Positions 5,216 to 30,377 of a stretch of 64,000 bases of DNA are shown here, one piece after another (the stretch's first letter is position 1; each line of letters starts with the position of its first letter). The position numbers were made by a program, and so were the translations under genes. A model generated the notes under the pieces. That model was not told the origin of the DNA, did not search any database, and worked only from the letters and a program-made list of their open reading frames with translations. This stretch comes from an uncultured Spirochaetia bacterium (GTDB lineage: Bacteria; Spirochaetota; Spirochaetia; SZUA-6; Bin103), in NCBI GenBank assembly GCA_958296075.1, contig CATQHW010000001.1, positions 372,001 to 436,000 of the forward strand, read 5' to 3'.

Positions 5216-5503
5216 TCAAAGCTCCCACGGCTCCCGCCCCACACCGGCCCAGGAGAACCCTCCCGCGGCCTGCTCCAGATCGGCTTCACCCAGATTGGCG
5301 GAGGGCGGAAGGATCAGGTGACTGATATCCGCCGTGTCCTCGTGCACCTCGACGGTGAACCCGGCGGGCACGTCGACGCCGATTTCCGCCTGGATCGCGG
5401 CCTTGGGGTCGGCGATCAACCGGGTGCGGAATTCGCCGTCCACCGTCGCCTTGCCGATCACGCGATCACGCATCTCGCTGATGGTCGCCGTTTTCTCGTT
5501 CAT
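5216..5503 (-). CDS. NHLP-type RiPP precursor peptide 1
   Basis: The 95-aa peptide has the nitrile-hydratase-like leader architecture: an amphipathic start, then FRTRLIADPKAAIQAEIGV, then VEVHEDTADISHLILPPSA, ending in LEQAAGG at residues 81-82. Cleavage after GG would release the core FSWAGVGREPWEL (13 residues). The core has no Cys or Thr, one Ser and two Trp, so lanthionine or azole chemistry is unlikely. The start is set by a strong ribosome site (AAGGAGAGG) just upstream of the ATG. A promoter with a special upstream element precedes it (5541-5610). A paralogue of identical length lies at 29967-30254. Confidence 0.85.
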   Translation of the reverse strand: MNEKTATISEMRDRVIGKATVDGEFRTRLIADPKAAIQAEIGVDVPAGFTVEVHEDTADISHLILPPSANLGEADLEQAAGGFSWAGVGREPWEL

Positions 5504-5540
5504 GTTCCTCTCCTTCTTCGGGAAAGATTTGCTGACTGAA

Positions 5541-5610
5541 AGGCTATCGACGGCGGCCGGTCGGTGTCAAGGCGACCGCCGGAGAAATGACTTATCCGGG
5601 ATTTCCGTGG
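5541..5610 (-). promoter_or_regulatory. Promoter and conserved upstream element of NHLP precursor 1
   Basis: On the minus strand: TTGACA at 5565-5570, an 18-base spacer, TAGCCT at 5541-5546. Fourteen bases upstream of the -35 is a 26-bp element (5585-5610) that includes CGGAAATCCCGGATA. The element matches the one upstream of the second NHLP gene at 21 of 26 positions, at exactly the same distance from the -35, while the spacer DNA between them differs. This suggests a shared activator site or UP-like element. Confidence 0.6.
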
Positions 5611-5648
5611 GCGGAGTCCATACCGCGGAGCCGCCGGCGGCGAGCGCG

Positions 5649-8600
5649 TCAACCGAGTCGCAGGTCGTCCGACACCTCGGACAGCAGCTCGTTGATCTTC
5701 GCCACCGCTTCGGCGGCGGCCGGACCCTCACCGCCGAGCTCGACGCGGAGGTTGAACTTCAGGTCGTGGCCGACTGCGGCCTGGGCGATTGCGGGAATCT
5801 GATCGGCCAGGTCCTGGATGCCGTTGGCTTGCAGGACCGCCTCCGCCGTGAGCACGCCCGGCCGATGCGCGGCCGGAGGCCACCCGCCGCCGCGGTCCGG
5901 CGGCTTGGCCGGCGGGATTGTCAGGACCACGTGCCGGGCGCCGGCAAGATCGCACGGCCAAGCGGCGCTCTCGGCGCCGAGCTCGACCCAACGGGCGCGG
6001 ATCGCGTCCTCGATCACCGCGCGCACTGCGGTCCAGGGGAGGGTCACGCCGTGCCTGGTCGACAGCGCCGCGGCCACGGCGAGGGCGTTGGTCGCGCCGT
6101 CCTGCCACGCCTCGGGGATCGACTCGGCCATGATTTCATCGACGGGTATCCGGGCGGGCGGCGGCCGCAGGGTGGCGGCGGCGCCGAGCACGCCGGCCGG
6201 CACCGGCTCGCTCAGGATCGACGCCGGCCCGCTGGTGAGCCAGACGATGCCCTGCTCGACCGCCTGCAGCACCGCGGCGCCGACCTGCGCCGGTTCGCAC
6301 GCCGGGGTCACGAAGGTCTCCTCGTAACCCTCACGCGGCACGGTGACTTCGGAGCCGCCGGCGAAGTAGTCGTACACCTCCTGTACGGTGATCGTCTCCG
6401 CGGACCAGAGCGCCGGGAGCTCCCCCGGGCGGAGCAGGCCGGGAGCGAGCCCGCTGAGCGTTGCGGCGGCGGGCAGCAGCAGTTCCAGGCCGGCGTCGTC
6501 GAGCGCCGGCTGGTCGATGGCGGTGCGCCAGAACGTCCGCACCGTCCGGTCCGGGCGCGTCACCTGCGCCACCCAGATGCCGGCCTTCACTCCGTCCACC
6601 ACGGTGTCGAGTATCTCCTTGCTGCGCAGCATCTTCGGCAGCTTCGGATACTGCGCGAAGGCGCCCACCAGGTCCTTGACGCGGCGCGACTGCTCATCCT
6701 CCCGCCAGAGGTCATAGGGGCCGCCCGGCAACAGCGTTTCCGCGTTGATGGCGGTCTCCTGGATGCGGGACCGCTGATCGGCCTTGATGGCGGTGAACAA
6801 CGGCTCGTCGCCCACGACGACCCGGAACGCCTCTATCGCGTCGCTCTCGCCGACGGTCACCACCACGCAGTAAGCGGACCGGACGGCGTTCGGGATGCGC
6901 TTGCGGGCGGCTGCGATCTCAGCGGCGAGCATCTGTTCGCGCAGCGGATCGATCGGCTGCTCCTGCAACTGCGCGCGCACTTCCTCCCACCCGAGGTACT
7001 CCCGCACGCGGGCGCGGGCGCCATCGAGGCCGTCGGGCGAGGGCGCGGCCACGACGATCGCGTTGCGGTAGACGCGGCGCCGGTCCGGCGTCGTGGTCTG
7101 GTCGATGAAGCGGCGCGCTGCCGCGCTCGGCTTGCCGGTGTCCGAGGCCGCCTGCGGGCCGAGCACGACGTAGTGGAACTCTCCGTCATCGGCCACGTCG
7201 CGCGGCCGCGCCGGCAGGTTGTGCGCCCGTGCGCCGGCCGCGACTGCACCGGCGGTGAGCGTCCGTTGCTTCTCGACGGCATCGAGGAGCTGGGATTCGA
7301 CCAGCTCCGGCGGCACCCGGTTGCGGCAGGCGTCGTGGTGCATCTGCCGCAGGTTGGGGCGGTTGCCCAGCCGCCACGCCGCGGGCAACCGGCCGCCCGC
7401 GCCGTCATCGGCGCCGCGCGCAGCCGCCTCCACCTCGTCCAGAAACCACGACACCTCGGTCCAGCGCTGCAGCCCTCTCTCCAGCTCTATCCGGTCCGGC
7501 TTGCCCGCTCCGAGCAGCACCAGCAGCTCCGGCGTCAACGCCTTCTGGTTGATCGGCTGGCAGCTCAGGAACACGGCGACCACCGCCTGCTCCAGCTCCC
7601 GGTGATGGAGACGGGCCGCGTCGGCCTGGAGCAGGCGCGCCTTGGCCAGTTCGCCTTCGAGGATCGGGCGCCACTCGTGGCGCGATCCGGCGCCGGTGTC
7701 GACGCTGGCGCAGGACGCCAGCTCGCTCGCCGCTTCCGCCAAGTCGTTCCGGTCCGGGTGGTTCAGGAACACGTTGGGGCCGATCAGCGGGCTGGTGTCC
7801 CACGACTCGGCATCCCGCAGGGCGGTGGCGAACGTGCGCAGGATGCCGCGCGTGCGCTGGAAGCCGTCGAGCTGGGTCCACCGCGTGTAGAAGATATCGG
7901 TGAGCGCCGGGTGAAAGGGATAGCTCCGGAGATAGCGCTGCTCGGCGACGGCCCGCTCGCGGGCGGTCTGCTCGTCGCGGGCGGCGATGCTGCCGACCGC
8001 CGCGGCCACGTGCGGCCGGAACGCGTCCTGATCGCGGATCGACTCCGGCGTGAAGAAGCGGCGCCGCAGCACCTGCGCCACGTCCTCCTTGCTCACCGGA
8101 CTGGCATCCTCCTCCATCTGCCGGCCGAACACCTCGGACACGTCGCGCAGCAACTCGTTGCCCAGCTCGTCATGCTTGCGCGGGTCGGAGGCGAGCAGCG
8201 ACGCCACCAGGGCGCAGCGGTCCACCTTGACCACCGCCTGCGTCAGGTACTGAAAGAAGCTGATCAGCCGGCCGCGCCAGCTCGGGTCGGTCTCGACCTG
8301 GGCGCGGAGGTACGTCAGCACTTCGTCGAGCAGCACCAGGGTCGCCAAGCCGTCGGCCTGCGGCCGGGCCAGCAACTGCGCCACCAGCGGTTCGGCCGGC
8401 GGGGTCTCCCGTTCCGCGTCCCTGCCGTCGGCGTGGATCAGCCGCAGGCCGTCCGCGCCCGCAAGTTGCCAGGCCAGCACGCTCCACGGCTGCCGGAGCG
8501 CCCGCACCGTCCCGTCCGGGCCGGGCGTGTCCACGCCCTTCTCCAGGTCGATCTTGTCGAAGCACAGCGCCGCAACCCGTGCCCGGGGTGTCCTGAAACC

Positions 8601-8972
8601 GACGTGCGCCTCGAACTCCCGCAGCGCGGGCAGGTCGGGAAGCTCGGCCGGGGCGTGCGCCAAGTGACGGAGCGCAATCAGCGTGTGGGTCTTGCCGCCG
8701 CCGTAGTTGACCGCCAGCTTGCGGTACGCCCGGTCGCTGCGGCCCGCCAGGCGCAGGGCCACCTCCTTGACCAGCTCCCGCAGATTGAAGGTGGGGTAGG
8801 TCAGGGCGAAGAACTCGGCCGGGTGCTCGTAGACCGGCCGCTGCCCCTGCTGCATCACCACGTCGTACAGGTCGGCGGCGAACACCGCCAGCGACAGCTC
8901 GCCGCTCTTCAGATCGTCGCGCAGCCGCACGACTTCATGCCAGGGGCTCGGAGATATACGCGACGTGCTCAT
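5649..8972 (-). CDS. DUF499 family ATPase, defence-associated
   Basis: The 1107-aa protein opens with SPWHEVVRLRDDLKSGEL, characteristic of DUF499. A Walker A loop, NYGGGKTHTL, spans residues 89-98. An acidic LVLLDEVLTYL (about residue 210) serves as Walker B. The rest is a long ATPase core with a C-terminal alpha/beta region. DUF499 ATPases are repeatedly found beside DUF1156 methyltransferases and helicases in antiphage loci, and DISARM-related arrays contain both; the mechanism of the family is not settled to my knowledge. Here it is the last gene of the minus-strand block, separated from the DUF1156 gene by a decayed VapBC remnant. It looks intact. Confidence 0.85.
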   Translation of the reverse strand: MSTSRISPSPWHEVVRLRDDLKSGELSLAVFAADLYDVVMQQGQRPVYEHPAEFFALTYPTFNLRELVKEVALRLAGRSDRAYRKLAVNYGGGKTHTLIALRHLAHAPAELPDLPALREFEAHVGFRTPRARVAALCFDKIDLEKGVDTPGPDGTVRALRQPWSVLAWQLAGADGLRLIHADGRDAERETPPAEPLVAQLLARPQADGLATLVLLDEVLTYLRAQVETDPSWRGRLISFFQYLTQAVVKVDRCALVASLLASDPRKHDELGNELLRDVSEVFGRQMEEDASPVSKEDVAQVLRRRFFTPESIRDQDAFRPHVAAAVGSIAARDEQTARERAVAEQRYLRSYPFHPALTDIFYTRWTQLDGFQRTRGILRTFATALRDAESWDTSPLIGPNVFLNHPDRNDLAEAASELASCASVDTGAGSRHEWRPILEGELAKARLLQADAARLHHRELEQAVVAVFLSCQPINQKALTPELLVLLGAGKPDRIELERGLQRWTEVSWFLDEVEAAARGADDGAGGRLPAAWRLGNRPNLRQMHHDACRNRVPPELVESQLLDAVEKQRTLTAGAVAAGARAHNLPARPRDVADDGEFHYVVLGPQAASDTGKPSAAARRFIDQTTTPDRRRVYRNAIVVAAPSPDGLDGARARVREYLGWEEVRAQLQEQPIDPLREQMLAAEIAAARKRIPNAVRSAYCVVVTVGESDAIEAFRVVVGDEPLFTAIKADQRSRIQETAINAETLLPGGPYDLWREDEQSRRVKDLVGAFAQYPKLPKMLRSKEILDTVVDGVKAGIWVAQVTRPDRTVRTFWRTAIDQPALDDAGLELLLPAAATLSGLAPGLLRPGELPALWSAETITVQEVYDYFAGGSEVTVPREGYEETFVTPACEPAQVGAAVLQAVEQGIVWLTSGPASILSEPVPAGVLGAAATLRPPPARIPVDEIMAESIPEAWQDGATNALAVAAALSTRHGVTLPWTAVRAVIEDAIRARWVELGAESAAWPCDLAGARHVVLTIPPAKPPDRGGGWPPAAHRPGVLTAEAVLQANGIQDLADQIPAIAQAAVGHDLKFNLRVELGGEGPAAAEAVAKINELLSEVSDDLRLG

Positions 8973-8989
8973 GCTATCGATGTTCCCCT

Positions 8990-9180
8990 ATGAAGCTGTT
9001 CCCCGCCCAAGACGGCCAAGCCGCCGACCTCGATCTGGTCAACCGCCTGCGTGATACGGATTCGTGAGCTACCTGCTGGAGGTCAACTTTCTGGTCTCTC
9101 TGTTCGATCCGCGGCCCGTGAATCGCTTGCCGGCACGCCGCTGGCACCGGTCGTGGCGCTGGTCCAGTGATCACCGTGAA
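8990..9180 (+). pseudogene. VapBC-like toxin-antitoxin remnant
   Basis: A 25-aa frame (ATG 8990, stop 9065-9067), MKLFPAQDGQAADLDLVNRL, resembles an antitoxin fragment. It overlaps, GTGA-style, a frame starting at 9064 with VSYLLEVNFLVSLFDPRPVN, the first strand and helix of a PIN-domain toxin. The usual first catalytic Asp (LLDVN) is Glu here. After about 20 residues the PIN sequence drops into other frames (ITVNEVVNGS reappears near 9165), and no full domain exists. This is a decayed module squeezed between DUF499 and DUF1156, on the opposite strand. Confidence 0.55.
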
Positions 9181-9188
9181 TGAAGTGG

Positions 9189-12100
9189 TCAACGGGTCAG
9201 CAGCTCCTTCTGACGATAACCCATACCGCCGCGGGCGACTACGTGATTGCTCAGGGCTTCGAGCAGCGAGCGCTCTTCGGAGCCGGCGCCGGCCAGCTCG
9301 ATGAGCGCCTGCAGGAGACGGTTGAACAGCGCGCTGCGCAGCAGGCCGTGGTCTCGGAGGTGGTCGTCGACCCTGGCCTTATCCCCGGCGTGCCACAGGC
9401 GCATCAGCCGGTGCACCTGGTCGATGAGCGGCGGCAGCCGCTCGCCGGGCGCTTCCAGCCCCAGGTCGCGGCCTTGACGGCGGTCCCAGGGCTTGAGTTT
9501 GACCTTGGCGCCGCTGCCTTCCGATTGTTCCTCGTCCCCGGCCGTATCTACGTCGGGCTGGTCCGCGCCGCGGCGGGCCGATTGCGCCAGCAGGTCGTGC
9601 TGGTGGACCAGTGCCGAGTCGGAGAGGTTGCATGACAGCGCATAGAGGATGCAGCCGCCCACCGGAGCCTCCCCCATACCGAAGTCGTAGCGATGGAGCA
9701 GGTAGTAGGTAGTCACGTCGTCGAGGCCGGTGGACGCCTCCGCATCGCCGTCGCGGGTCAGCACGCGTCCGACCACGAAATCGACCACGATCCGCCGCAC
9801 CTCGCGCAGAAACTCGGAGACGGTCATGAGCTCGTTCGGCGCGTTCGCCTTCTTGACGACCGGGTACCTGCTGAAGGCTTCCAGGGCCGGCCCGGTCGCC
9901 GCCCACACGAAGTCCGGCCCGCGAATGCCCGCGTCCCAGAAGTCGTGGAGCTTCCCGACGACGTTCGCGCGCATCTGGTCGAGGACGCCGCCGTCCCAGC
10001 CCGGGCGTGTGCCGGTGCGCTTACGACAGACCAGCCAGATCGACGACGCCAGTGATGCTCTGCCGTAGTTGCGGACTCCGCCGCGCATCTCCGTAGCGAT
10101 TGGCCAACTGCCGTCGACGACGAATCCCGCTCGAATGATGGCTGAGACCAGCGTCTCCCAGGCATCCGGCCTCTTGTTGGCAAAGACGACGAGAAGCCTG
10201 CCGCTTGGCGGTAACGCTGAGTGGCAGGTCCGAAACGCGCGTGCCATGCCGTCTTCGTAGCTCTCTTTGGACTGAGCTCTGTCGCCGTTGAACCGGCTTG
10301 CGTCGTCGATCAATTCTCCGTCGTTGTCGTCCGCGCTCCACTTTGGCCCTAACGGTTCCCGGAATGACCTGTCGAATTCGGCAGCCAGGCCGGATAGCGT
10401 ACGGCGCAGCCAGATGTAAAAGAAATCCATCAGATCGGAATAGGGAATTGCGTCATAGTAGGGAGGATCCGTGACCACCAAGTCGTGCTGATCAACTGGA
10501 GCGATTGCGCTCTGGCACAGGACCGTCGGCGCAGTGCCGGTCCTTGGAATGGCAGGTGTTATGGAATCCAGTACCCGTGCGACGTTCGAAACTCCGCCGG
10601 CGAACAGGCGGTCTACGGAGGCAAGCGGGTTCCCCTCGGCGAAGTCCCAGGTAATCGGCAAGGCGAACCGCAGGAATGTCTGCTTGATCTCGGAGGCGAC
10701 CGGCTCCCATATGCACAGCGTGCTCATGTAGTTGGCGGCACGATCCAATGCGGCTGCGAGCAGAGCGACTACCGCACGCAGAGCCTCGCCGTCACCGCGA
10801 AAGGACTCCGAGGCCGGAATGCTCCGTATCGTTCCGATGAGCGTCCCGAGCGCCAGGAGCTGACGGTTGGTGAACAGTCTTCGCCAAGTATGGAAGCCAT
10901 ATCCATCTACCGAGAAGGCACGCGATGCGCCCCTTCCTGCCTTCGGCGTCGGCTCCTCCGGCAGCCCGAAGGGAATGTCCGCGTAGACGGCTTGGAGCTG
11001 TTCCTCGGTAACCTCGGCCGCCGCACGCTCATGCTCGGTGGGCCGGCGGTACTCCTTGCCGTTGGGGCCATCGATTACCACGACCGTCATGACCGTACCC
11101 AACCCGGAGCGTCCTTCCAGGCGGATATCCTGCATGGTCATGATCGTCCGGCAGCACGGGCAGGTTGCGCCGACGCGCGACATGGTGCCGGAACCGATGC
11201 GCTTGTCGTGCTCCCGCCGCTGCGCCGCGTTGCCGCCACGCTGCGGTACGACGGCCTGCACGCCGAACACGACGCCCCGCCGCGACTCGTCGGGCTCCAT
11301 CGTCAGCAGTACGCGCTTGCGCTCCTTCTTGCACAGCCAGCGCGTCTTGAGCAGCGGCAGCACGGCGCGGCACCGCTTGCAGATGACCGTGCGCGCGTGC
11401 AGATAGGCGACCGCGGGTTTGGCGACCCACCGAGGGTTGCGGGCGTCTTCCAGGTACTCGGCGTCGAATTCCGCGTTCAGCGCGTCGATCTGCGGTTCTC
11501 CCGCGTCATCCGCCTCCAGCAACCGCAGCGGCCGCGAATCGCAGTCATGGCCACGCTTCAGCGGTACGAACTCGGCGTAGACAGGGTAGCGGGCCGCCAG
11601 CTTCTTACGCGCCTGCGCCAGCACCCACCGGCCCCATGCTCGTACCTGCCACGCAAGGTCCGCGTCGAGCAGCGGATCATCGGGCTCGATGAGGTCGAAC
11701 TGAGTTTCATCATGGTCACCGTGCCCAAGCCGCTGGAGCAGGGCACGCAGCGTGGCGCCCTTGAATCCGTGGGCCTTCAGAAGCGCCTCCATGAAGTCCG
11801 CGTCGCGCACCGCAAACTCAGGCAGTGGATGCGTCCGACCAGCCAGTCGCTGCGGGTAATCAAGCGTGCACTTGAGGATGAACCACGCGACCGGATTGAT
11901 GTCGATCGCGGTCACCTCGCAGCCGAGCCGCATCGCTTCCAGCGGAATGGCGCCACCGCCCGCGAACGGGTCCAACACTCTCGGAGCCCGCCCGCCGTAC
12001 GCCTTGCGAATCTCGTCCCGAAACCACTGCAGATCGTCGCCGTTCTCCCGGCCCCAGTGAAGGATGCCGCCCGCCGTCTCCTCCTTCACGTTCTCCACCA

Positions 12101-12395
12101 AGCGGCCATTGACGCGCTTGCGCTCCACCTTCTCGACCACTCGACCAGCCATCCGTTCCAGAATCGCCTGCCGCCGTTCCCCATCGCCGGGATCGGCAAG
12201 CAGCGTCGCAATCAGCGCCGCCCGGCACGCCGCCAGGGGCCGCCGCGCCGGCCAGATATGCAACGTCGAGACATGCCCGTGCCGCACGTTCTTCTCGTGC
12301 ACCGAATCGAGCGACACCTGCTTCAGCGGAAACGCCGCCTCGATGAGGCGCCTGTCGCTGCGTTCTATATCCACCATCCCCCCGTGGAACGGCAC
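9189..12395 (-). CDS. DUF1156 family adenine-specific DNA methyltransferase, defence-associated
   Basis: The 1068-aa protein has the DUF1156 N-terminus (IEAAFPLKQVSLDSVHEKNV, HIWPARRPLAACRAA), a SAM-binding motif I DPFAGGGAIPLEAMRLG at about residue 142, and the catalytic motif TDPPYYDAIPYSDLMDFFY near residue 640. This motif order marks a large beta-type N6-adenine (or N4-cytosine) methylase. A Cys-rich insertion (ICKRCRAVL, CPCCRTIM) suggests a zinc-binding segment. In DISARM-related systems such enzymes mark self DNA. The start could be the GTG at 12395 or the ATG at 12377 (MVDIERSDRR). It is followed by DUF499 and preceded by a PIN toxin/antitoxin pair. Confidence 0.88.
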   Translation of the reverse strand: MPFHGGMVDIERSDRRLIEAAFPLKQVSLDSVHEKNVRHGHVSTLHIWPARRPLAACRAALIATLLADPGDGERRQAILERMAGRVVEKVERKRVNGRLVENVKEETAGGILHWGRENGDDLQWFRDEIRKAYGGRAPRVLDPFAGGGAIPLEAMRLGCEVTAIDINPVAWFILKCTLDYPQRLAGRTHPLPEFAVRDADFMEALLKAHGFKGATLRALLQRLGHGDHDETQFDLIEPDDPLLDADLAWQVRAWGRWVLAQARKKLAARYPVYAEFVPLKRGHDCDSRPLRLLEADDAGEPQIDALNAEFDAEYLEDARNPRWVAKPAVAYLHARTVICKRCRAVLPLLKTRWLCKKERKRVLLTMEPDESRRGVVFGVQAVVPQRGGNAAQRREHDKRIGSGTMSRVGATCPCCRTIMTMQDIRLEGRSGLGTVMTVVVIDGPNGKEYRRPTEHERAAAEVTEEQLQAVYADIPFGLPEEPTPKAGRGASRAFSVDGYGFHTWRRLFTNRQLLALGTLIGTIRSIPASESFRGDGEALRAVVALLAAALDRAANYMSTLCIWEPVASEIKQTFLRFALPITWDFAEGNPLASVDRLFAGGVSNVARVLDSITPAIPRTGTAPTVLCQSAIAPVDQHDLVVTDPPYYDAIPYSDLMDFFYIWLRRTLSGLAAEFDRSFREPLGPKWSADDNDGELIDDASRFNGDRAQSKESYEDGMARAFRTCHSALPPSGRLLVVFANKRPDAWETLVSAIIRAGFVVDGSWPIATEMRGGVRNYGRASLASSIWLVCRKRTGTRPGWDGGVLDQMRANVVGKLHDFWDAGIRGPDFVWAATGPALEAFSRYPVVKKANAPNELMTVSEFLREVRRIVVDFVVGRVLTRDGDAEASTGLDDVTTYYLLHRYDFGMGEAPVGGCILYALSCNLSDSALVHQHDLLAQSARRGADQPDVDTAGDEEQSEGSGAKVKLKPWDRRQGRDLGLEAPGERLPPLIDQVHRLMRLWHAGDKARVDDHLRDHGLLRSALFNRLLQALIELAGAGSEERSLLEALSNHVVARGGMGYRQKELLTR

Positions 12396-12411
12396 ACGAA
12401 GAAGACCAAGC

Positions 12412-12609
12412 TCACTTGCGCCGACTTTGAGACCCCGATGCAGAGCCTCGCTCTGCTACGTTTCTCGAGCCACTCAGATCGACGACCCGCTGACCCGCGG
12501 GCCGCGGTCTGCTTCGGAAGTAGGCAACAAGCCGGTCGATGTCATACCCGTATTCCCGAGCGATGCTGTCCTTAACCTGCCAGAGTTCCTCGATGACTTC
12601 GTCAGACAT
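12412..12609 (-). CDS. Small antitoxin-like protein
   Basis: The 65-aa product MSDEVIEELWQVKDSIAREY...YDIDRLVAYFRSR resembles the short acidic partners encoded after VapC-like PIN toxins in several phyla. It overlaps the end of the PIN gene by 8 bp, so the order is toxin then antitoxin. The C-terminal half is basic and low complexity. The assignment rests on size, position and general likeness. Confidence 0.5.
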   Translation of the reverse strand: MSDEVIEELWQVKDSIAREYGYDIDRLVAYFRSRPRPAGQRVVDLSGSRNVAERGSASGSQSRRK

Positions 12610-20343: not shown

Positions 20344-20350
20344 AGCGACG

Positions 20351-22567: not shown

Positions 22568-22571
22568 GACG

Positions 22572-23555
22572 ATGGGTCGTCTGACCGACACGTTCCTGGT
22601 GGTGGACGCGCACTGCGACACCCTGATCCGACGCCAGAACAAGGGCGATGCGGTCGACCTGACGCGCCCCGACCCGAGCTACCAGATCGACCTGCCGCGC
22701 CTCCGCGCAGGCGGCGTCGACTGCCTGTTCTGCATGGTCGGAGATCGCGACCTCGACGCCTCCGTATCGCTGATCGATGCGGTGTACCGGATGTGCGGGG
22801 ACCAGGACGGCGACTACGCGCTCTGCCGGTCCGCCGGCGACGTGCGGGTGGCGCGGGCCGCCGGCAAGATCGCGATCGTGATGACGATCGAAGGTCAAGT
22901 GATGTTCGGCGAGCGGCTCGGCCACCTGCGCACGTGGCACCGCCTGGGCGTCCGGGTCGCCAGCCTGACGCACGGCGATGGGCGGCCCCCGGAGCTGCAG
23001 TACTCCGACAGCTACTTCGGCTACCTCACGCCCGCCGAGCGCGAGACCCTGCGGCGGCAATCCAAGGGCCTGACCCCGTTCGCGCGTGAGGCACTCGCGG
23101 AGATGGCCCGCCTGGCGATGCCCGTTGACCTGGCTCACTGCAACGATGCGGCGTTCTGGGAAGTGCTGGAGGTGGCCGACGTCCCGGTCTGCTACACGCA
23201 TGGGGCCGCCTACGCGCTCTGCCCTCACTCCCGCTTGCTGACCGACGACATGATGCGGGCGCTGGCCGAACGCGGCGGCGTGATGGGTATCGCCTGCTAC
23301 TCCGGCTTCATCGATCGCGAGCAGCCGACGCTGGAGCGGCTTGCGGACCACGTGCTGCACGCCCTTTCGATCATGGGGCCGGACCACGTGGGCATCGGCT
23401 CCGACTTCGACGGGATGCCGATGTGGAGCGAGCCGATCCCCGCCGACATTTCTCATCTCGACGACGTGTTCCAGGCGCTGGCCCGCCGCGGCGTGGACCG
23501 CGCTACGCTGGCCGCGATCGCCGGCGAGAACTTCCTCCGACTGTTGCCGCCCTAG
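22572..23555 (+). CDS. Membrane dipeptidase family (M19) metallopeptidase
   Basis: The 327-aa enzyme shows the M19 zinc ligands in order: DAHCDT at the N-terminus, MTIEGQ (bridging Glu), DLAHCND, THGAAYALCPHSR and GIGSDFDGMP near the C-terminus. Family members hydrolyse dipeptides, often with D-residues at the second position, in an (alpha/beta)8 barrel. The start is ATG 22572, four bases after the propeller gene stop. No signal peptide is present, so it is cytoplasmic. Why a dipeptidase is embedded in a sugar-transport operon is unclear; processing of a peptidoglycan- or glycopeptide-derived substrate would fit. Confidence 0.85.
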   Translation: MGRLTDTFLVVDAHCDTLIRRQNKGDAVDLTRPDPSYQIDLPRLRAGGVDCLFCMVGDRDLDASVSLIDAVYRMCGDQDGDYALCRSAGDVRVARAAGKIAIVMTIEGQVMFGERLGHLRTWHRLGVRVASLTHGDGRPPELQYSDSYFGYLTPAERETLRRQSKGLTPFAREALAEMARLAMPVDLAHCNDAAFWEVLEVADVPVCYTHGAAYALCPHSRLLTDDMMRALAERGGVMGIACYSGFIDREQPTLERLADHVLHALSIMGPDHVGIGSDFDGMPMWSEPIPADISHLDDVFQALARRGVDRATLAAIAGENFLRLLPP

Positions 23556-23582
23556 AGGTGGGAGGACGGAAAGGATACGGCG

Positions 23583-24509
23583 ATGGTTGCCGGGTATCGC
23601 TTGACGACTTCAGAGCGGCTGTTCGGGATCGCCAACCACCTGTTCCTGACGCTGTTCGCACTGGCGACCCTGTATCCGTTCTGGTTCGTGCTGCAGGGAT
23701 CGTTCACCGACCCGGCATTTCCGCTGGCGTTCCTGTGGCCGAAGGGACTCTACTACGCCAACTACCAGCAGGTGTTCACCGTCACGGGGATATGGAAGGC
23801 CTATCTGATCACGATCGCGCGGGTGGGAGTGGCGGTGCCGCTCACGATGCTGGTAACCGGCGGCGCGGCGTTCGCGTTGACGCGTCCGGAGTTCGTGGGC
23901 CGCAACGCCGTGATCCTGCTGTTCTTCATCACCATGTTCATCAACGGCGGGCTGATCCCGTTCTACATGGTGTTGCGCACGGTCGGCCTGATCAACAACT
24001 TCCTGGTCTACGTCATACCGGTCGTCTTCAACGTGTGGATGATGATCGTCATGAAGACGTCGTTCCGGAGTTTGCCGGAAGGGCTGGTAGAGGCGGCGGT
24101 GATCGACGGTGCGAACTACCTGACGATCTTCTTTCGCATCGCGGCACCGCTGTCCGTGCCGATGATCGCGACGATGGGCTTGTTCAATGCCGTGTGGCAC
24201 TGGAACGACTGGCTCTTCGGAGCGTTCTACGTCAGCGAGCCCGACCTGCGGCCCTTGCAGACCTTTCTGCAGGAGGCGGTGCTCGAAGGCGGGTTGTCGG
24301 ACCGGCTGGCGGCGGTCTGGCACCACGGGGGCGGTGATCGCGACGACCTGCGCGTCAACCACAACGTGCTGCGCCAGCTCAAGCGCCTCACGCCCGAGTC
24401 GCTGAAGTTCGCCTTCATCACCGTGACGACCGTGCCGATCCTGTGCGTCTACCCCTTCATCCAGCGATACTTCATCAAGGGCGTCATGATCGGCTCCATC
24501 AAGGAGTAA
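23583..24509 (+). CDS. Sugar ABC transporter permease, LplC type (system 1)
   Basis: The 308-aa permease has six helices, the LplC-like ATLYPFWFVLQGSFTDPAF, an EAA loop at VEAAVIDGANYLTIFFRIA, and the family ending YFIKGVMIGSIKE. Residues about 240-270 (SDRLAAVWHHGGGDRDDL) look unusually hydrophilic compared with the paralogue at 36047; both frames stay open, so I leave it as one gene. It pairs with the LplB-type gene at 20351 and probably with the binding protein at 25841-27598 on the opposite strand. Confidence 0.83.
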   Translation: MVAGYRLTTSERLFGIANHLFLTLFALATLYPFWFVLQGSFTDPAFPLAFLWPKGLYYANYQQVFTVTGIWKAYLITIARVGVAVPLTMLVTGGAAFALTRPEFVGRNAVILLFFITMFINGGLIPFYMVLRTVGLINNFLVYVIPVVFNVWMMIVMKTSFRSLPEGLVEAAVIDGANYLTIFFRIAAPLSVPMIATMGLFNAVWHWNDWLFGAFYVSEPDLRPLQTFLQEAVLEGGLSDRLAAVWHHGGGDRDDLRVNHNVLRQLKRLTPESLKFAFITVTTVPILCVYPFIQRYFIKGVMIGSIKE

Positions 24510-24522
24510 CGATCTGCAGCCG

Positions 24523-25749
24523 TCACAGCCCCGTGACGTCCACCGCGCCGATCTCGATGTCTTCCTTGTTGACGGAGTAGCCGACCAGCAGACGGTCCGG
24601 CTCCTCCAGGCAGCAGGGATACATGTAGCCCTGCAGTTTGAGCAACCCGCGGATCCGCTGGTCCGTCGGATCGTCCACCAGGATGTACACCCGATCGAAA
24701 CGGTATCCGTCATCGCCGATCAGCAGCGTCAGGTGCAGGCGATTGTGCAGCGTCGCGTTGGCGTTGTTGCACAGGTAGAAGCGGCCGTCGGCCAGCCGGC
24801 CAGCGTAGTTGCGCGACATGGCATCCGGGATGTCGGAGATCATCGGATCGCTGAAACTGCGGCCGCCGTCGGTGCTGTGGTTCACCCAGACACGCCCCGA
24901 CTGGCTCTCGTCCCGCCAGAAAACCACGATCGTGCCGTCATCGGTCTGGTACCAGCTCGATTCGCCGCCGTCCAGCTTCGCCCCGAACGGTTGCGGCAGC
25001 GGCAGGATCGCAGGCGTCTGCAGAATGTCAGAGCCCGGCCACAGGAGGATCGCCGGACCGCTGCGCCGGTCGATCGATGACACGCACAGGAGCCGGCCTT
25101 CCGCGGTCATTCGAGGCGTCTCGTAGGTCGCCGCGACGCGCTCGGGAAGCGTCGCTTCCCGCGACCACGCGCTGCCGTCATGCGACGCGTACACGTACGT
25201 CCGCGCGTTGTGCCAGTCGGCGTAGTAGCCGCCCCCTACCGCGTTGGAGTTGGGGTCACGCACGCGGCGCGCCCAGCGGATCATCATGTACAGCGATCCG
25301 CCCAGCGCGGTCAGGCCCACGCACTTGTAGGCGTCGCGCGTGTCCTCCCCCCCGCCGATCACCGATGCGGGGGCGCTCCACTCGCGCCCGTCGTCGGAGT
25401 GGGAGATGCGCACCTGCTGTCCCTCGGTGTCCTCGTCGAGCCGGCCGTTGGTGAACCCGTAGTAGTAGCGGCCTTCCAGCGCCGCGAGCTGCGAGTCGAT
25501 GTTCCAGGAGCCCGCCTCCCGGCTGGCGGTATAGACGCGCGAACGCTCGAACGGCGCATAGGGGATGATCGGCGGCACGCGTGCGCGCAGGCCCTGGTCA
25601 GTGTAGCGAAGGATGCATCCACGTTCCTGCAGGCACTCCAGCGTGTGGAACTTGCCGAGCCGGTCGGCCGCCTCCGGACCGAGCATGGTGACGTATGGCC
25701 GGGACGCGATCTGCAGCCCCGCAACGCCTGTCGCCATCGACCCTCTCAT
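24523..25749 (-). CDS. Sialidase/BNR-like beta-propeller protein 2
   Basis: The 408-aa protein contains Asp-box-like motifs SHSDDGREWS, SHDGSAWSR and STDGGRSFSD and repeated WYQ/YYGF elements of a propeller fold. No signal peptide. Start at 25749, with AGAGG eight bases upstream; an in-frame ATG at 25737 is an alternative. It is the second gene after the binding protein on the minus strand, with a hairpin between them, and converges on the LplC gene. Substrate unknown. Confidence 0.7.
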   Translation of the reverse strand: MRGSMATGVAGLQIASRPYVTMLGPEAADRLGKFHTLECLQERGCILRYTDQGLRARVPPIIPYAPFERSRVYTASREAGSWNIDSQLAALEGRYYYGFTNGRLDEDTEGQQVRISHSDDGREWSAPASVIGGGEDTRDAYKCVGLTALGGSLYMMIRWARRVRDPNSNAVGGGYYADWHNARTYVYASHDGSAWSREATLPERVAATYETPRMTAEGRLLCVSSIDRRSGPAILLWPGSDILQTPAILPLPQPFGAKLDGGESSWYQTDDGTIVVFWRDESQSGRVWVNHSTDGGRSFSDPMISDIPDAMSRNYAGRLADGRFYLCNNANATLHNRLHLTLLIGDDGYRFDRVYILVDDPTDQRIRGLLKLQGYMYPCCLEEPDRLLVGYSVNKEDIEIGAVDVTGL

Positions 25750-25766
25750 GCAGAGATCCTCTCAGG

Positions 25767-25796
25767 TGGTCGAGCGAGCCTGCGCCCGCTCGACCA
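25767..25796 (-). terminator. Perfect 10-bp hairpin between binding protein and propeller gene
   Basis: TGGTCGAGCG pairs with CGCTCGACCA around a 10-base loop. It lies 45 bases after the binding-protein stop and 17 bases before the next start. There is no T-run, so it is more likely an mRNA-stabilising or attenuating stem that keeps the binding protein in excess over downstream products, as is common in ABC operons. Confidence 0.5.
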
Positions 25797-25840
25797 CGCC
25801 GGTTATTCGATCCGCGGTCCGCCCGTCGCGCGCCCCGCGA

Positions 25841-27598
25841 TTACCAGCCCATCACCGCGGCCCACTCGGGGCGCGGCGTGACGGTGATCAGGCTCTCGCG
25901 GTCGTCGACGTCGTTGTCGCTCATCCACTGCTCCCACCGCTGCTGGCGCTCCTCGTAGATCGACCGCCAGTCGGTGATGTCGATCAGGCTCGCAAGCGCG
26001 GCATCGTAATCGGCCTCGAAGTTGCCGGAGGTGATCAACGCGGCGAGGGCGGCGTCGAACCGCTCCCTGGCGGTCGCCATCGCCGAAGCCTCGCGCGGCG
26101 GCAGCGCCACGGTCAGTTGCGCGTACGACGGGATCGAGCTCACCACGGACGCCAGCGGAATCGTGAACGCCGGCGACCAGGACGGCATCGTCGGGTCGCC
26201 CGGGCGATCGCCCACCGCGACGCCGTTCTCACGCAACGCCTGCAGGCTGTGGTAGTTGAGCCGCTGCTGCCATGATGCGTAGTTGGGGGTCCCGAACCAG
26301 TGGCCGTGCGGGGTCACCAGCGGCGGCCGTCCGGCCTGCCGGGTCGTCTCCACGCTGTCCTGCGAATTGGCGATCTGCCGCGAATCATGCGGATGCCTGC
26401 CCTGCAGCTCCGGCTTCATGCGCCAGACCTCCGGGCCGTCCACGAAGTCCCAGTGCACCCCCAGATAGCCGGCGGCGAACATGTTCGAGATACGTCCCTC
26501 GTCGGTCATGTGCCACTGGAGGAACTTCATGACCCCGTCCGGGTTGGGGATGTCCGCCGAAAGCAGCGACGGATTGGGCTGCTTGTTGACGATCCGGCCG
26601 GGAGCGTCGGCGATCGGGTTGACCATCATGATGAACTGCGTGTCGATGGCGGCTTGCGTCTCCGGAGCGTTGCGGCCGTACGTGTCGACGAACCCGGGGA
26701 TCACGTCGTCGCCCATCACCGATGCGTACCACGGCTCGCCGGCGGCGATCGCGTAGCTCGAGGTCTTCAGCCGGTCGATGAATCCTGCCGTATCCATGAC
26801 GAACTGCCCCGCGCCGATCAGCCCCTCGTTCCAGAGCAGGTTGAGGAACTTGAACGACTCGTAGGTCTCAATCGAAGCCCACTCCGGCATCAGCCGCTTC
26901 TCGGCATCCACTTCCCATCCGGCTCCCTTGAGCTGGTACACCACGCGGTGGTTGACCTGCGGCCACGCGCTCCGCCACTGGAAGGGGATGACCGGATCGC
27001 CTGCAAGGTCGGTCAGGCCGGACGCCTTGACCGCCCGCAGCACCTCGAGCAGCTCATCGGTGGTCTTGGGGTAGCCGTATTCCTCGTAGACGTCCTTGCG
27101 GATGTACCAGAGCGCGTCGACCGACACGTCCTCGCACTTCACTGCCCATTCCCAGCCGGGAAGCCCGTAGACCTGGCCATCGACCTTGTACTTCGACAGG
27201 TAGCTCTGGCAGGCGCTGGCGATGATCGGGTAGTTCACCGAGTCGCGAAAATACGCGTCGAGCGGCAGCAACCGGCCGCCGACCGCCAAATCGGCCATGG
27301 TCGTGAAGGGCATGTTCCACATCAGGTCCGGGAACTCGTCCTGGGCGATCAGGAGCTGCAGCGCCTGGTCGGCCGTCTGCCCGTCGGGCACCTTGTCGAT
27401 CCTGCTGACGGTGATGCCGAACTTCTCGCTCGCCCATTCGTTGGAAACGGCGAGCAGTTCCTCGTCGAACGGCCCGTGCGGGACCCCCCAGATCCAGATA
27501 CCGCGATCCGCCTCCATCGAAGCGGATTCCTGGCCGCCCTCCGCAAAGAGCGGCAGCGCGATCGAAAGGACGATCAGGACAGTCGAGACCTTCCTCAT
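25841..27598 (-). CDS. Extracellular solute-binding protein of a sugar ABC transporter (system 1)
   Basis: The 585-aa protein begins with a signal peptide, MRKVSTVLIVLSIALPLFAE, followed by GGQESAS, a junction common in spirochaete binding proteins. It has the LplA-type layout: a long two-lobe protein with QLLIAQDEFPDLMWNMPF and PDGVMKFLQWHMTDEGRI. Start at 27598, set by AAGGGAGG six bases upstream; an in-frame start at 27622 is less likely. No lipobox Cys. It probably serves the permeases at 20351 and 23583. A 106-bp piece of this gene is copied at 30384-30489. Confidence 0.85.
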   Translation of the reverse strand: MRKVSTVLIVLSIALPLFAEGGQESASMEADRGIWIWGVPHGPFDEELLAVSNEWASEKFGITVSRIDKVPDGQTADQALQLLIAQDEFPDLMWNMPFTTMADLAVGGRLLPLDAYFRDSVNYPIIASACQSYLSKYKVDGQVYGLPGWEWAVKCEDVSVDALWYIRKDVYEEYGYPKTTDELLEVLRAVKASGLTDLAGDPVIPFQWRSAWPQVNHRVVYQLKGAGWEVDAEKRLMPEWASIETYESFKFLNLLWNEGLIGAGQFVMDTAGFIDRLKTSSYAIAAGEPWYASVMGDDVIPGFVDTYGRNAPETQAAIDTQFIMMVNPIADAPGRIVNKQPNPSLLSADIPNPDGVMKFLQWHMTDEGRISNMFAAGYLGVHWDFVDGPEVWRMKPELQGRHPHDSRQIANSQDSVETTRQAGRPPLVTPHGHWFGTPNYASWQQRLNYHSLQALRENGVAVGDRPGDPTMPSWSPAFTIPLASVVSSIPSYAQLTVALPPREASAMATARERFDAALAALITSGNFEADYDAALASLIDITDWRSIYEERQQRWEQWMSDNDVDDRESLITVTPRPEWAAVMGW

Positions 27599-27659
27599 GG
27601 AACCTCCCTTGTCGTGGGGCACCTGTCTGGATGATCATGGTGCCCGTATCGACACCCAC

Positions 27660-27688
27660 ACGTTAGGCGAGGACTTCGCGACCGTCAA
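27660..27688 (-). promoter_or_regulatory. Putative sigma-70 promoter of the binding-protein gene
   Basis: Minus strand: TTGACG (27683-27688), 17 bases, TAACGT (27660-27665), in the divergent gap between the binding protein and the RraA-like gene. Confidence 0.45.
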
Positions 27689-27721
27689 GGTCGAACGTCC
27701 GCCGCCGACAGGGAGAGAAAC

Positions 27722-28459
27722 ATGGCGGAAGCGCCGGAGGGGACAGCTCTCCTCGATGATTTGGCCCGATTCGACACGCCCACCATCTGCAACGTGATCG
27801 AGCTGTTCGACGTGCGCTCACCTGCCGGTGGATTCATGGACCGGAACGTTCGTTGCGAGTATCCCGAGCTGCCGCCGATGGTCGGGTATGCGGCTACGGC
27901 CACCTATCGGTCCGCCTACGCTCCGGCAGAGGGCGAAGCCTGCGGACTCGCCGATTTGCTTGCGAGTTTCGAATCGCTGCCGGGCCCCGCGGTGGTGACG
28001 ATCCAGGACCTGGACGAGCCGCCGGCGGCGGCCTGCTTCGGCGACGTTGCCTGCAACAGCTACCTGGCGTTCGGCGCGCGCGGCGTGGTCACCTCCGGCG
28101 CCGGCCGCGATCTGGAGCAGGTACAGGCCCTGCGCTTCCCGGCGTTTACCAGCGGCACGATCTGCTCGCACGGGTTCAGCTACCTGGTGGACACCGGTAT
28201 CCCCGTGCAGGTCGGCGGGATCACGGTGCGTCCCGGCGATCTGATCCATGGAGACCGCAACGGGGTCGTGATCATCCCGCCGGCGATCGCCGCTCAGGTC
28301 GCCGCGCTGGCCGACGACCTCATCGCGGCGGAGCAGGACGTGCTCACGTACGTGCAGTCGGCTCGGCCGCCGACCGTCGCCGGCTACCGCGACGCCGTGG
28401 CGCGCATGCAGCGGAAGCTGGCCGCTCTCAAGGAACGGATCTCCGCGGATCCGGACTGA
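27722..28459 (+). CDS. RraA-family protein (HMG/CHA aldolase-like)
   Basis: The 245-aa protein has the RraA/dimethylmenaquinone-methyltransferase-like fold markers: FDTPTICNVIELFDVR, CFGDVACNSYLAFGARGVVT, SGAGRDLEQV and PVQVGGITVRPGDLIHGDRN. The G-D-x-x-x-x-x-A and R-D pairs match metal-dependent 4-hydroxy-4-methyl-2-oxoglutarate/4-carboxy-4-hydroxy-2-oxoadipate aldolases. It could cleave a 2-keto acid made by the enolase-superfamily and dehydrogenase genes. A GGGAGAG site precedes the ATG. Truncated relics of the same family occur at 55975-56197. Confidence 0.78.
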   Translation: MAEAPEGTALLDDLARFDTPTICNVIELFDVRSPAGGFMDRNVRCEYPELPPMVGYAATATYRSAYAPAEGEACGLADLLASFESLPGPAVVTIQDLDEPPAAACFGDVACNSYLAFGARGVVTSGAGRDLEQVQALRFPAFTSGTICSHGFSYLVDTGIPVQVGGITVRPGDLIHGDRNGVVIIPPAIAAQVAALADDLIAAEQDVLTYVQSARPPTVAGYRDAVARMQRKLAALKERISADPD

Positions 28460-28483
28460 CCGGCGACGGGAGCAGAGGGACCG

Positions 28484-29677
28484 TTGGCGACCCAGCCGGA
28501 CCTGACCGCCGCCGGTGGCGACCGTCCCACGCCTGAGGAGGCGGCGCGCAACGCACCGCTGCTCGCCGGCTACGACTACGACCGCTACCCGTCATCGATC
28601 ACCGGGTTCACCGGCCTCAATCTGCAGCGCGTCTTCGTGCGGCGACAGATGCGCGCGGTGCGCGCCCGCGTCGGGCCGCGCGGCAACTTCAAGGGGGCCA
28701 TCGCGCGTCTGTCCGACGGCGCGCTGGTGGCCGCGGCGTGCCGTCGGATCGACGAGCGCGGGCTGTTCGGCATACACGTCTACCGCAGCGCCGACCGCGG
28801 ATCGACGTGGGACGAGATCGGTGAAGACCCGCTCTACGGCAAGGAGATGAGCCTGACAGCGCTGCCGGACGACGCTCTGTTGCTCACGGTGGAGTCGACC
28901 GTGCCCGGCTACCCGTCGATGACCTTCGCCGACGATCCGACCAGGATGTTCTACCACCGATCGGCCGATGGCGGTCGCACCTGGGACACCGGATCGATCG
29001 ACGGACCGGGCAAGCCACGCAACGTGCTGGTCGAACCGGACGGAAGCCTGCTCATGGCGCGCCCGCGATGCTCGGCGTACCTGCACCGCCTTTATTCATT
29101 GCAAGGCCGGCCGTTCGCGCCGAGCCCGGATCTGGAGCTCAGCCGATCCGCGGACGGCGGCCGCACGTGGCAGAGCACGACCGGCCGCGTGGCGTGGCAG
29201 GTCACCACCTTCGGCGAGGTGTCGATCGCGCGCCTTCCCGGCGGCCGCCTGCTGGCGTCGCTGCGCACCAACCCGCCCGGCACGGAAGGCGAGGGGCAGC
29301 AAGTCACGTACCTCACGAGATCGGATGACGGCGGGGCTACCTGGTGCGCGCCGTGGCCGATGACCAACCTGGCCGAGGTGCAGGTGAACCTGCTCGTGCT
29401 GCGTGACGACCGGCTGCTGGCGACGTATACCAACTACCATCTGCCGTTCGGCGTGTGCGCCGTGGTGTCCGACGACGGCGGCCGGACGTGGAGCTTCGAC
29501 GCCCCGGTGCAGCTCGCGCTGTCGGCGGACTGCTATACGGGCTGGCCGGTGACCGTCGAGCTCGATGACGGCGTATTCATCACCTGCTACATGATCACCG
29601 CCTTTCTGAACGAACCGCCCGACCCCAAGGGCGTGCAGCGCAGCGTCTGCGAGGTGGTCCGCTGGCGACTGCCTTGA
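28484..29677 (+). CDS. Sialidase/BNR-repeat beta-propeller protein 3
   Basis: The 397-aa protein has five or more Asp-boxes: SADRGSTWD, SADGGRTWDT, SADGGRTWQ, SDDGGATWC and SDDGGRTWS. It starts with TTG after GAGGG. No signal peptide. It follows the RraA-like gene by 24 bases. Its final 51 bases and the DNA after its stop are repeated at 30490-30640, which shows that this end took part in a local duplication. Confidence 0.75.
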   Translation: MATQPDLTAAGGDRPTPEEAARNAPLLAGYDYDRYPSSITGFTGLNLQRVFVRRQMRAVRARVGPRGNFKGAIARLSDGALVAAACRRIDERGLFGIHVYRSADRGSTWDEIGEDPLYGKEMSLTALPDDALLLTVESTVPGYPSMTFADDPTRMFYHRSADGGRTWDTGSIDGPGKPRNVLVEPDGSLLMARPRCSAYLHRLYSLQGRPFAPSPDLELSRSADGGRTWQSTTGRVAWQVTTFGEVSIARLPGGRLLASLRTNPPGTEGEGQQVTYLTRSDDGGATWCAPWPMTNLAEVQVNLLVLRDDRLLATYTNYHLPFGVCAVVSDDGGRTWSFDAPVQLALSADCYTGWPVTVELDDGVFITCYMITAFLNEPPDPKGVQRSVCEVVRWRLP

Positions 29678-29950
29678 AACCACCTCGTCTTCTGACCAGC
29701 TTCGCTCCGACCCCCAGGAGCGCCGGTGGAGTCAGTGGCGCGTGATGACCGGGGCTGCGACGGGCTGCAGGCGGACGTTGCCGATCACCGCCACGAACGG
29801 CAGATCGTGGCGCACGGCCGTGTCGATCTCCAGCGGGTGAAACCCGAAGGTGCCGTCTCCCATCGTCGCGGCGATGCGCGCGACGGGAAACAGCGTGCGG
29901 GCGGCGAGCGCGAACGGCAGCGCCGCCCCGCTCGCGCCTGCAGGACCGCT
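29627..29950. repeat. Segmental duplication, copy A (propeller 3' end plus TPP-enzyme 3' end)
   Basis: From 29627 (AAGGGCGTGCAGCGC) to about 29782 the sequence matches 30490-30643 almost base for base. It then jumps, by deletion of about 200 bases at a short ACGTTG-like junction, to match the region from about 30841 to 31000. Similarity is lost near 29950. Copy B is attached to the intact TPP-enzyme gene, so copy A is the derived one. Confidence 0.8.
29732..29950 (-). pseudogene. TPP-enzyme C-terminal fragment with internal deletion
   Basis: This frame encodes GASGAALPFALAARTLFPVA, MGDGTFGFHPLEIDT and then, after a deletion of about 66 codons, VRLQPVAAPVITRH. Both parts are nearly identical to the C-terminus of the intact gene at 30595-32202. 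It has no start or N-terminal domains and cannot be functional. Confidence 0.8.
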
Positions 29951-29964
29951 GAGCGGCTCAGCGG
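29946..29964 (-). terminator. Hairpin just after NHLP precursor 2
   Basis: CCGCTGAG and CTCAGCGG form a perfect 8-bp stem with a 3-base loop, two bases after the precursor's TAA. No T-run follows, so it may be a transcript-end or stability hairpin. It marks the left border of the inserted precursor cassette. Confidence 0.4.
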
Positions 29965-29966
29965 GA

Positions 29967-30254
29967 TTACCAGTGGCTAATGAGTGAGTCGACATTCCGC
30001 CCAAAAAACCTCGACTGACCCCCCGCGGCGACCGCCTGCAGGTCGCCTTCGCTCAGCTTGCTGTCGGGGGGAAGAACCAGATGCGCGGTCGCGCCGCTCT
30101 CTTCGTGAACCTCGACCGACAGAGACGCTGGAATGGTGACACCCAACTCCTGCTTGATCGCCCCCTTCGGATCGCTCAGCAGCCGGGCGCGGAAGTCCGA
30201 GTCCTCGGCTGCCTTGCCCACGATCCTCGCCTGCATTTCCTTTGCCGTTTCCAT
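29967..30254 (-). CDS. NHLP-type RiPP precursor peptide 2 (orphan)
   Basis: The 95-aa peptide is colinear with precursor 1: IVGKAAEDSDFRARLLSDPK, GVTIPASLSVEVHEE, HLVLPPDSKLSEGDL, then AVAAGG (residues 78-79). The predicted core after GG is QSRFFGRNVDSLISHW (16 residues): no Cys or Thr, two Ser, two Phe, one His and a C-terminal Trp. The start is fixed by GAGGAGG just upstream. It has the same promoter type as precursor 1. No modification or export gene is adjacent; it sits within a mosaic of duplicated fragments, so it may rely on the 359-aa protein at 4047 or on distant genes. Confidence 0.83.
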   Translation of the reverse strand: METAKEMQARIVGKAAEDSDFRARLLSDPKGAIKQELGVTIPASLSVEVHEESGATAHLVLPPDSKLSEGDLQAVAAGGQSRFFGRNVDSLISHW

Positions 30255-30308
30255 GGTTCGTTCCTCCTCAAATAGAGTTATGGTTACGTGTCCCGCACGA
30301 TCACCTGT

Positions 30309-30377
30309 ACCCTACGATACCGGCCATCCGATGTCAAGGCCAGATGCACAAAAATGTGTTATCAGGAATTTCCGGGG
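30309..30377 (-). promoter_or_regulatory. Promoter and conserved upstream element of NHLP precursor 2
   Basis: Minus strand: TTGACA (30332-30337), 17 bases, TAGGGT (30309-30314). The 26-bp upstream element (30352-30377, with CGGAAATTCCTGATA and then CATTT) is at the same distance from the -35 as in precursor 1. It ends seven bases before a fragment copied from the binding-protein gene begins, so promoter and peptide gene seem to have moved together. Confidence 0.6.

Follow-up and report, generated by a model that had tools for sequence, protein, structure and literature searches.

A conserved promoter element and a predicted regulon of NHLP-type peptide precursors in a Spirochaetia bacterium

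Two genes in a stretch of DNA from an uncultured Spirochaetia bacterium encode precursors of ribosomally synthesized and post-translationally modified peptides (RiPPs) of the nitrile hydratase-like leader peptide (NHLP) type, and the promoters of both carry the same 26-bp element upstream of the -35 box. Is this element the site of a regulator, and if so, which genes does it join? The stretch that was analysed, called the window below, is 64,000 nucleotides (nt) long. It lies on contig C1 of a host genome (G000) of 4.05 Mb in 5 contigs, with a completeness of 97.7% and a contamination of 5.2%. The following features of the window raise the question.

5216-5503, minus strand: NHLP-type RiPP precursor 1 (TIGR03793, 65.8 bits, over the cut-off; sequence)
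5585-5610, minus strand: 26-bp element of precursor 1 (pattern and promoter-model matches; sequence)
5565-5570, minus strand: -35 box TTGACA of precursor 1, 14 nt after the element
5543-5548, minus strand: -10-like box GATAGC of precursor 1, in the place of GATACT in several paralogues
29967-30254, minus strand: NHLP-type RiPP precursor 2 (TIGR03793, 71.9 bits, over the cut-off)
30352-30377, minus strand: 26-bp element of precursor 2 (pattern and promoter-model matches; sequence)
30332-30337, minus strand: -35 box TTGACA of precursor 2, 14 nt after the element
30309-30314, minus strand: -10-like box TAGGGT of precursor 2 (sequence)
57265-57289, plus strand: third copy of the element, one base shorter (E 7.5e-13 with the promoter model, from whose training set it was absent)
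57304-57332, plus strand: relic promoter with -35 TTGACG (57304-57309) and -10 GATATT (57327-57332)

The element across the host genome

In both loci the order on the minus strand is element, 14-nt spacer, TTGACA, 16 to 17 nt, GATAGC or TAGGGT box, and gene. The coordinates, strand and sequences of both genes and promoters agree with the original prediction, and so does its claim that the elements at 5585-5610 and 30352-30377 are identical at 21 of 26 positions. It had also claimed a constant distance to the -35 box despite divergence of the DNA between, which is borne out by the 14 nt in both loci and by spacers that agree at 6 of 14 positions. Apart from this pair, just one 26-mer of the window matches the first element at 18 or more of its 26 positions, namely the copy at 57265 on the plus strand (19 of 26). 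This copy is decayed, its promoter is a relic, and no precursor gene was seen behind it.

We called NHLP precursors with the NCBIfam model TIGR03793 at its curated cut-off of 50.9 bits. The original prediction had described both proteins as 95-amino-acid leaders ending in GG. The GG end is correct, but 95 amino acids is the length of each whole precursor. The leader of precursor 1 takes up 82 amino acids to the GG and is followed by a 13-amino-acid core, FSWAGVGREPWEL, that contains a Trp; precursor 2 has a leader of 79 amino acids and a 16-amino-acid core, QSRFFGRNVDSLISHW, with Trp as its last residue. Over the whole genome the model gives 13 matches, of which 11 exceed the cut-off and represent intact precursors, on two contigs, while the remaining two are pieces of one frameshifted gene. 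This frameshifted twelfth precursor, L050 8303-8470 (C1:909.3k), lacks the element. Every one of the 11 intact precursors has the GG leader end and a Trp in its core (the aligned column is invariant, and the Trp is the last residue in six), and none has a core Cys. The paralogues are 35 to 82% identical to precursor 1, some pairs being close. For these TIGR03793 precursors, cleavage at the GG and modification of the core are predicted.

A sequence model built from the nine NHLP promoters of the host that have the element finds 13 sites in the genome, with E-values from 4.8e-20 to 1.5e-6; the next candidate has an E-value of 0.027. NHLP precursors stand behind nine of the 13 sites, at C1:377.2k and 402.0k (those of the window) and at C2:466.9k, 972.9k, 974.8k, 989.8k, 1022.2k, 1024.1k and 1605.2k. 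The other four were outside the training set, yet they were recovered at 4.6e-13 to 1.5e-6. One of these, C3:448009, has its own TTGACG and precedes the gene of an amino-acid ATP-binding cassette (ABC) transporter binding protein (TIGR01096, E 3e-59, which is below that model's cut-off). Another, C2:706821, precedes a lipoprotein-like open reading frame (ORF) that was read by eye and not called by a crude gene caller. The last two are relics with no precursor seen: C1:429267, which is the copy at 57265 on the plus strand of the window, and C2:188594. The latter terminates in a disrupted copy of a LysR-type gene that stands intact near the C2:1024.1k precursor, and this relic therefore seems to be what is left of a copy of that locus.

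The pattern CACGGAAATNCCNGATAAGTCA (20 specified bases, at most 3 mismatches) has 12 matches in the whole genome, and the reversed pattern, used as a control, has none. With leave-one-out matrices, each derived from the eight other NHLP sites, the left-out site scored 25 to 48 bits in every case, the relic at 57265 scored 17 to 19 bits, and non-site places scored at most 15.8 bits (251,000 bases scanned). The same site thus recurs at a constrained position in several promoters, beyond chance, as is typical of a regulon.

The two intact precursors that lack the element are those at C1:630.8k and C2:973.6k; in the 500 nt examined for each, the best resemblance was at most 13 of 25 letters, which is the chance level. 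The C1:630.8k gene is an 82% identical copy of the gene at 5216, lies behind another gene, and, judged by eye, loses its likeness shortly upstream of the ATG. Upstream of the C2:973.6k gene there is an ORF that we take to be transposase-like. The upstream DNA of both precursors, as read by eye, looks replaced or rearranged.

Selection was assessed by comparing the nine NHLP promoters with one another. Their mean pairwise identity is 85% in the element and 84% in the -35 box, compared with 37% in the spacer between these, 29% and 28% upstream of the element (-100 to -31 and -30 to -5, respectively) and 52% between the -35 and -10 boxes. Between the precursor genes, the corresponding figures are 68% over 79 codons and 57% at third codon positions. 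On this comparison the element is under selection, because it has stayed 85% identical while the flanks and spacer drifted to 28-37%, and it has been kept better than the precursor genes themselves. This agrees with the earlier argument for selection on a regulator site. At each of the nine NHLP sites, CGGAAAT lies 37 or 38 bp from the -35 box, and the distance is 40 (C3:448009) and 37 (C2:706821) at the two other genes. The -35 box is TTGACA or TTGACG in seven of the nine NHLP promoters. The most conserved letters of the element, CGGAAATNCC.GAT.A, include the partial dyad CGG-N5-CCG and, after it, a one-sided GATAAG-like arm. The dyad forms the conserved core CGGAAATNCCG, and would suit a dimeric protein.

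A predicted regulator and the alternatives

The element is probably the binding site of one regulator, most likely a class I-type activator, that would switch on genes scattered over the genome. Taking the first T of TTGACA as -36, the 26-mer would span -76 to -51 with its centre near -63, where class I activators usually bind. The regulator would then be bound about 63 bp before the transcription start, upstream of the -35 box (TTGAC) and of a weaker GATACT-like -10 box. A dimeric activator that touches the polymerase from one side would leave a dyad with a one-sided arm. The layout resembles class I activator promoters of the CRP type, in which the site is also centred near -60 with a near-fixed spacing upstream of the -35 box; the sequence of the element is unlike that of the CRP site as generally described. 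The regulon would comprise nine of the eleven intact NHLP precursors, the predicted prenyltransferase genes directly behind four of those nine (see below), the amino-acid transporter binding protein and the lipoprotein-like gene. Within this proposal, protein binding, activation rather than repression, and co-expression are steps that we infer.

It is important to consider several points that weigh against this proposal. A near-consensus -35 box could work without an activator, and identity around the -10 box is 42%, a figure taken ungapped from the -35 box and lowered by 1-nt spacing differences. No regulator gene was seen directly before or behind any of the 13 sites. The nine NHLP sites are not nine independent cases, since a 52-kb stretch of contig C2 holds six of the 11 precursors (five with the element) and some of the precursors are closely related paralogues. 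Because two sites seem to serve non-NHLP genes, the set seems not to be a pure RiPP regulon. Finally, the element had been expected at orthologous precursor loci, and it is absent from the single orthologue available, the NHLP precursor of a relative from the same family but another genus (G001), where the best resemblance is at the chance level of 13 of 25 letters. For this one orthologue, the outcome is among those that the original prediction had named as refuting it. Within the host genome, the interpretation of the original prediction is supported: the genome search that it had suggested placed nine of the 13 sites in front of NHLP precursors, and the element has been kept where its flanks and spacer drifted.

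The regulator families searched were those of the LuxR/NarL type, of which the genome encodes two proteins, both of them away from the sites. The only positional lead, a weak one, is a gene at C2:1026265-1027167, near the C2:1024.1k precursor, which by eye we take to be of the LysR type. Its broken copy accompanies the relic element at C2:188594, and the motif TACCGGAT, which also occurs in the element, is found within 200 nt before the intact gene. Five spellings of the site, searched across 5.39 million papers, led to two papers, both about unrelated matters as judged by title, which is a weak test of whether a described regulator has this site. Among the literature matches listed (three papers in one search, the best 10 of 5,418 in another) there was no regulator site of NHLP genes.

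A first alternative, which we think unlikely, is that the element is a repressor or silencer site at which a bound protein keeps the precursors off until a signal arrives. The near-consensus -35 boxes (TTGACA or TTGACG) are of the kind found in activator-independent promoters and would fit such a role. However, simple repressor sites usually overlap the region from -35 to +1, and this site lies wholly upstream of the -35 box at an almost fixed distance.

We consider it quite improbable that the element marks the left end of a mobile cassette, in which case it would be conserved as a recombination or transposition end moving together with the precursors. The precursors are dispersed, as such a cassette would be, and the ORF of a putative ISL3-type transposase has its end within the element at C2:974615. 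Moreover, the unit of precursor 2 is bracketed by direct repeats, as follows.

29627-29952, strand not assigned: left direct repeat flanking the precursor 2 unit (97-100% identical blocks D1-D3)
30490-31016, strand not assigned: right direct repeat flanking the precursor 2 unit, with extra DNA absent from the left copy

However, an end of this kind needs no fixed distance to a -35 box, whereas here it is 37 or 38 in nine of nine, and the drifted spacer points to old copies. Genes other than NHLP precursors seem to be served by two of the sites, and in the 400 nt behind the 11 precursors no shared downstream motif stood above shuffled sequence: the best 14-mer (2 mismatches, both strands) occurred in five of 11 regions including its own, and one of three shuffles equalled this.

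Very little speaks for an UP-like promoter part, read by the alpha subunit of RNA polymerase or by a nucleoid protein and giving strong constitutive expression. The location upstream of the -35 box and a T-rich stretch after the core in several copies would fit, but the invariant letters include CGG and CC..GAT instead of an A+T tract, and 13 copies per genome are few for a general promoter part. That the element has no function and is common by descent among copies of one precursor locus can practically be dismissed. The precursors are indeed paralogous, with some close pairs, but the element still stands at 85% where flanks, spacer and third codon positions have diverged as described above.

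If the element is an activator site, as we prefer to read it, the result is a new, small and dispersed predicted regulon that is coupled to an unannotated prenyltransferase family, although every single part varies on a known theme. The usual route to RiPP precursors is through neighbouring genes; here, a single promoter element links nine genes that have few neighbours in common. The element therefore offers a way to trace all members of the set along with their enzymes and their regulator.

The predicted prenyltransferase partner and likely products

In the window, precursor 1 has a partner gene with a predicted prenyltransferase fold.

4047-5126, minus strand: partner gene, 89 bp behind precursor 1, with a predicted ABBA (indole) prenyltransferase fold (AlphaFold2, Foldseek and VIA-align)

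Its protein has no match in Pfam or NCBIfam. The AlphaFold2 model has a predicted local distance difference test (pLDDT) score of 86.6. Foldseek matches it to PriB with an E-value of 9e-7, a template modelling (TM) score of 0.53 and a root-mean-square deviation (rmsd) of 6.9, and VIA-align matches it to MpnD with Z 18.1 and an rmsd of 4.2 over 293 residues. As modelled, the protein has the five-fold alpha-beta-beta-alpha (ABBA) barrel. Prenyl transfer to indole is predicted from this fold, which shows no function by itself. The host genome has four full copies of the predicted prenyltransferase and one fragment, and every full copy immediately follows an NHLP precursor that has the same orientation. 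In G001, the sole NHLP gene has a copy on either side. In G014, the prenyltransferase is fused to a cyclase-like domain, and there is no NHLP match.

The prenyltransferase and cyclase-like domains are fused only in G014 and are separate genes in the host. There, a cyclase-like gene (L044 16201-17196, plus strand) abuts the end of the C2:975.1k prenyltransferase gene. It matches the Pfam family SQHop_cyclase_C below the cut-off, and its model has a pLDDT of 53. It can be aligned to the fused domain of G014 at 29% identity, and a stretch that reads DLDS in the host reads DMDD in G014 and may be likened to the DXDD motif. A link to terpene cyclases is suggested by this stretch and by the sub-threshold Pfam match. 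Prenylation of Trp followed by cyclisation would be plausible at C2:975.1k, in the manner of NctPC (see below).

Prenylated-Trp peptides are the likely product, because all 11 precursors keep a core Trp, none has a core Cys, and ABBA copies lie beside precursors. Seven of the 11, including that at 29967, have no adjoining prenyltransferase and would depend on one supplied in trans or on a different enzyme. Trp bromination of the SrpI type was considered and dropped, as there is no match to the Trp halogenase family PF04820 at E 0.01 in the host genome. A JmjC_2 gene (a cupin-type oxygenase; L044 11080-12396, minus strand, i.e., C2:971080-972396) lies about 410 nt behind the C2:972.9k precursor, and its product is a possible hydroxylase of that peptide.

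The system can be compared with known RiPPs. Like other NHLP precursors, or proteusins, those of the host have a long nitrile-hydratase-like leader, a GG end and a short core. They differ in that there are eleven in one genome, nine of them under one element, and in their Cys-free cores with a conserved Trp. In Paenibacillus alvei, the NHLP precursor PalX, with a conserved C-terminal Trp, is encoded beside the Trp prenyltransferase PalQ, which has an isoprenoid-synthase fold; the pair lies with a histidine kinase gene (PMC10853753). PalX/PalQ is thus a known case of an NHLP peptide prenylated at Trp by an enzyme of another fold. An NHLP precursor beside a Trp prenyltransferase would be common to both systems, and the host partner has a predicted ABBA fold instead. 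No kinase gene was noticed next to the four host pairs among their partly annotated neighbours. NctPC and the polycyclic isoprenoid RiPPs were reportedly described by Hubrich et al. 2024. According to a review, NctPC has an ABBA-type barrel prenyltransferase domain, of low similarity to known families, that acts on Trp and is joined to a terpene-cyclase-like domain (PMC13290415). In comparison, the predicted host prenyltransferase is a separate gene, a cyclase-like gene is seen behind one of the four copies, and the fused form occurs in G014. The SrpE/SrpI brominated proteusins of sponge microbiomes are modified at a C-terminal Trp (PMC10858898). A proteusin with a modified C-terminal Trp would be the shared feature, and the host cores lack the Cys of SrpE, just as its genome lacks the PF04820 match.

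The findings suggest that related prenylated-Trp peptides are produced in a spirochaete lineage by ABBA prenyltransferases of an unannotated family. One might go further and imagine that a single regulator runs a genome-wide combinatorial set of eleven precursors that differ in their Trp cores, nine of them switched together, with four ABBA enzymes acting in trans, the prenylated-Trp peptides being signals, the regulator their receiver or its partner, and the element the output of the circuit by which the peptides themselves are sensed. The ComX/ComQ pheromones provide the analogy for prenylated-Trp peptide signals. We put this forward as a speculation that is doubtful at present.

Relatives and surroundings

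We searched two sets, the first being the host with 60 relatives (61 genomes) and the second, wider set being 394 genomes of the class. In the first, the model of the nine NHLP promoters matches in the host, in G011 (one site, E 0.0076) and in G035 (E 0.0028). In the wider set, six genomes pass 0.001 with a second model: the host (12 sites), four weak matches (E 1.8e-4 to 6.5e-4), and G011 (one site, which was in the second model's training set). Only the host and this G011 site score well. The weak matches in G035, G158 and G328 were set aside, as they have no element with a -35 box at the right distance. That in G174 has an element-like stretch and TTGACG, but lies inside a 526-codon frame on the opposite strand and was read as chance. 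NHLP precursors over the cut-off occur in two of the 61 genomes, the host and G001. The expansion of precursors and the element are both special to the host lineage as sampled.

The site in G011, a relative of the same order, is on contig C78, contains a perfect CCGGAAATTCCGG dyad and precedes ORFs that by eye are MarR-like and TolC-like. It may be a chance match, given an E-value of 0.0076 per genome in a 61-genome search. The MarR-like protein was rejected as a shared regulator, because it has no close relative in the host (no matches in G000 at 1e-10; matches in eight of 26 genomes) and because the site may be due to chance.

An exact pattern of element core plus TTGAC, which would itself miss four of the nine NHLP sites of the host, was searched in a collection of 84,980 genomes, from which records of the host genome may be absent. 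It found 30 stretches, where by our estimate about 13 would be expected by chance. By eye, three kinds shortly precede the start of an ORF. One, L103, from the Spirochaetales bacterium Zod_Metabat.934, is identical in its letters to the G011 site. We take the other two as probable chance matches: L093, from Gemmatimonadetes, 59 nt from its ORF, and L100, from Lachnospiraceae, at 30 nt (L104, from the same metagenome-assembled genome, has nearly the same letters). A stop-free frame of at least 200 codons covers 24 of the 30 stretches, but this measure does not decide the matter, because L103 and eight of the 13 sites in the G+C-rich host are also in such frames.

A few further observations concern the surroundings of the element-driven genes. 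Strong stem-loops are found near the 5' end of several of their mRNAs (L046, L048, L041), with z-scores of -4.1 at C2:466.9k and -4.4 at the amino-acid transporter. Among the ten leaders folded, those of the two window genes have no strong hairpin, and the hairpins are therefore not part of the shared feature. In the repeats at 29627-31016, a terminal piece of a thiamine-diphosphate enzyme gene is present together with its flanking DNA, an arrangement that would fit a duplication accompanied by an insertion. Immediately upstream of the first precursor, on the minus strand, Pfam identifies a DUF499 gene (5649-8930) and a DUF1156/methylase gene (9189-12395), which presumably form a defence-type pair.

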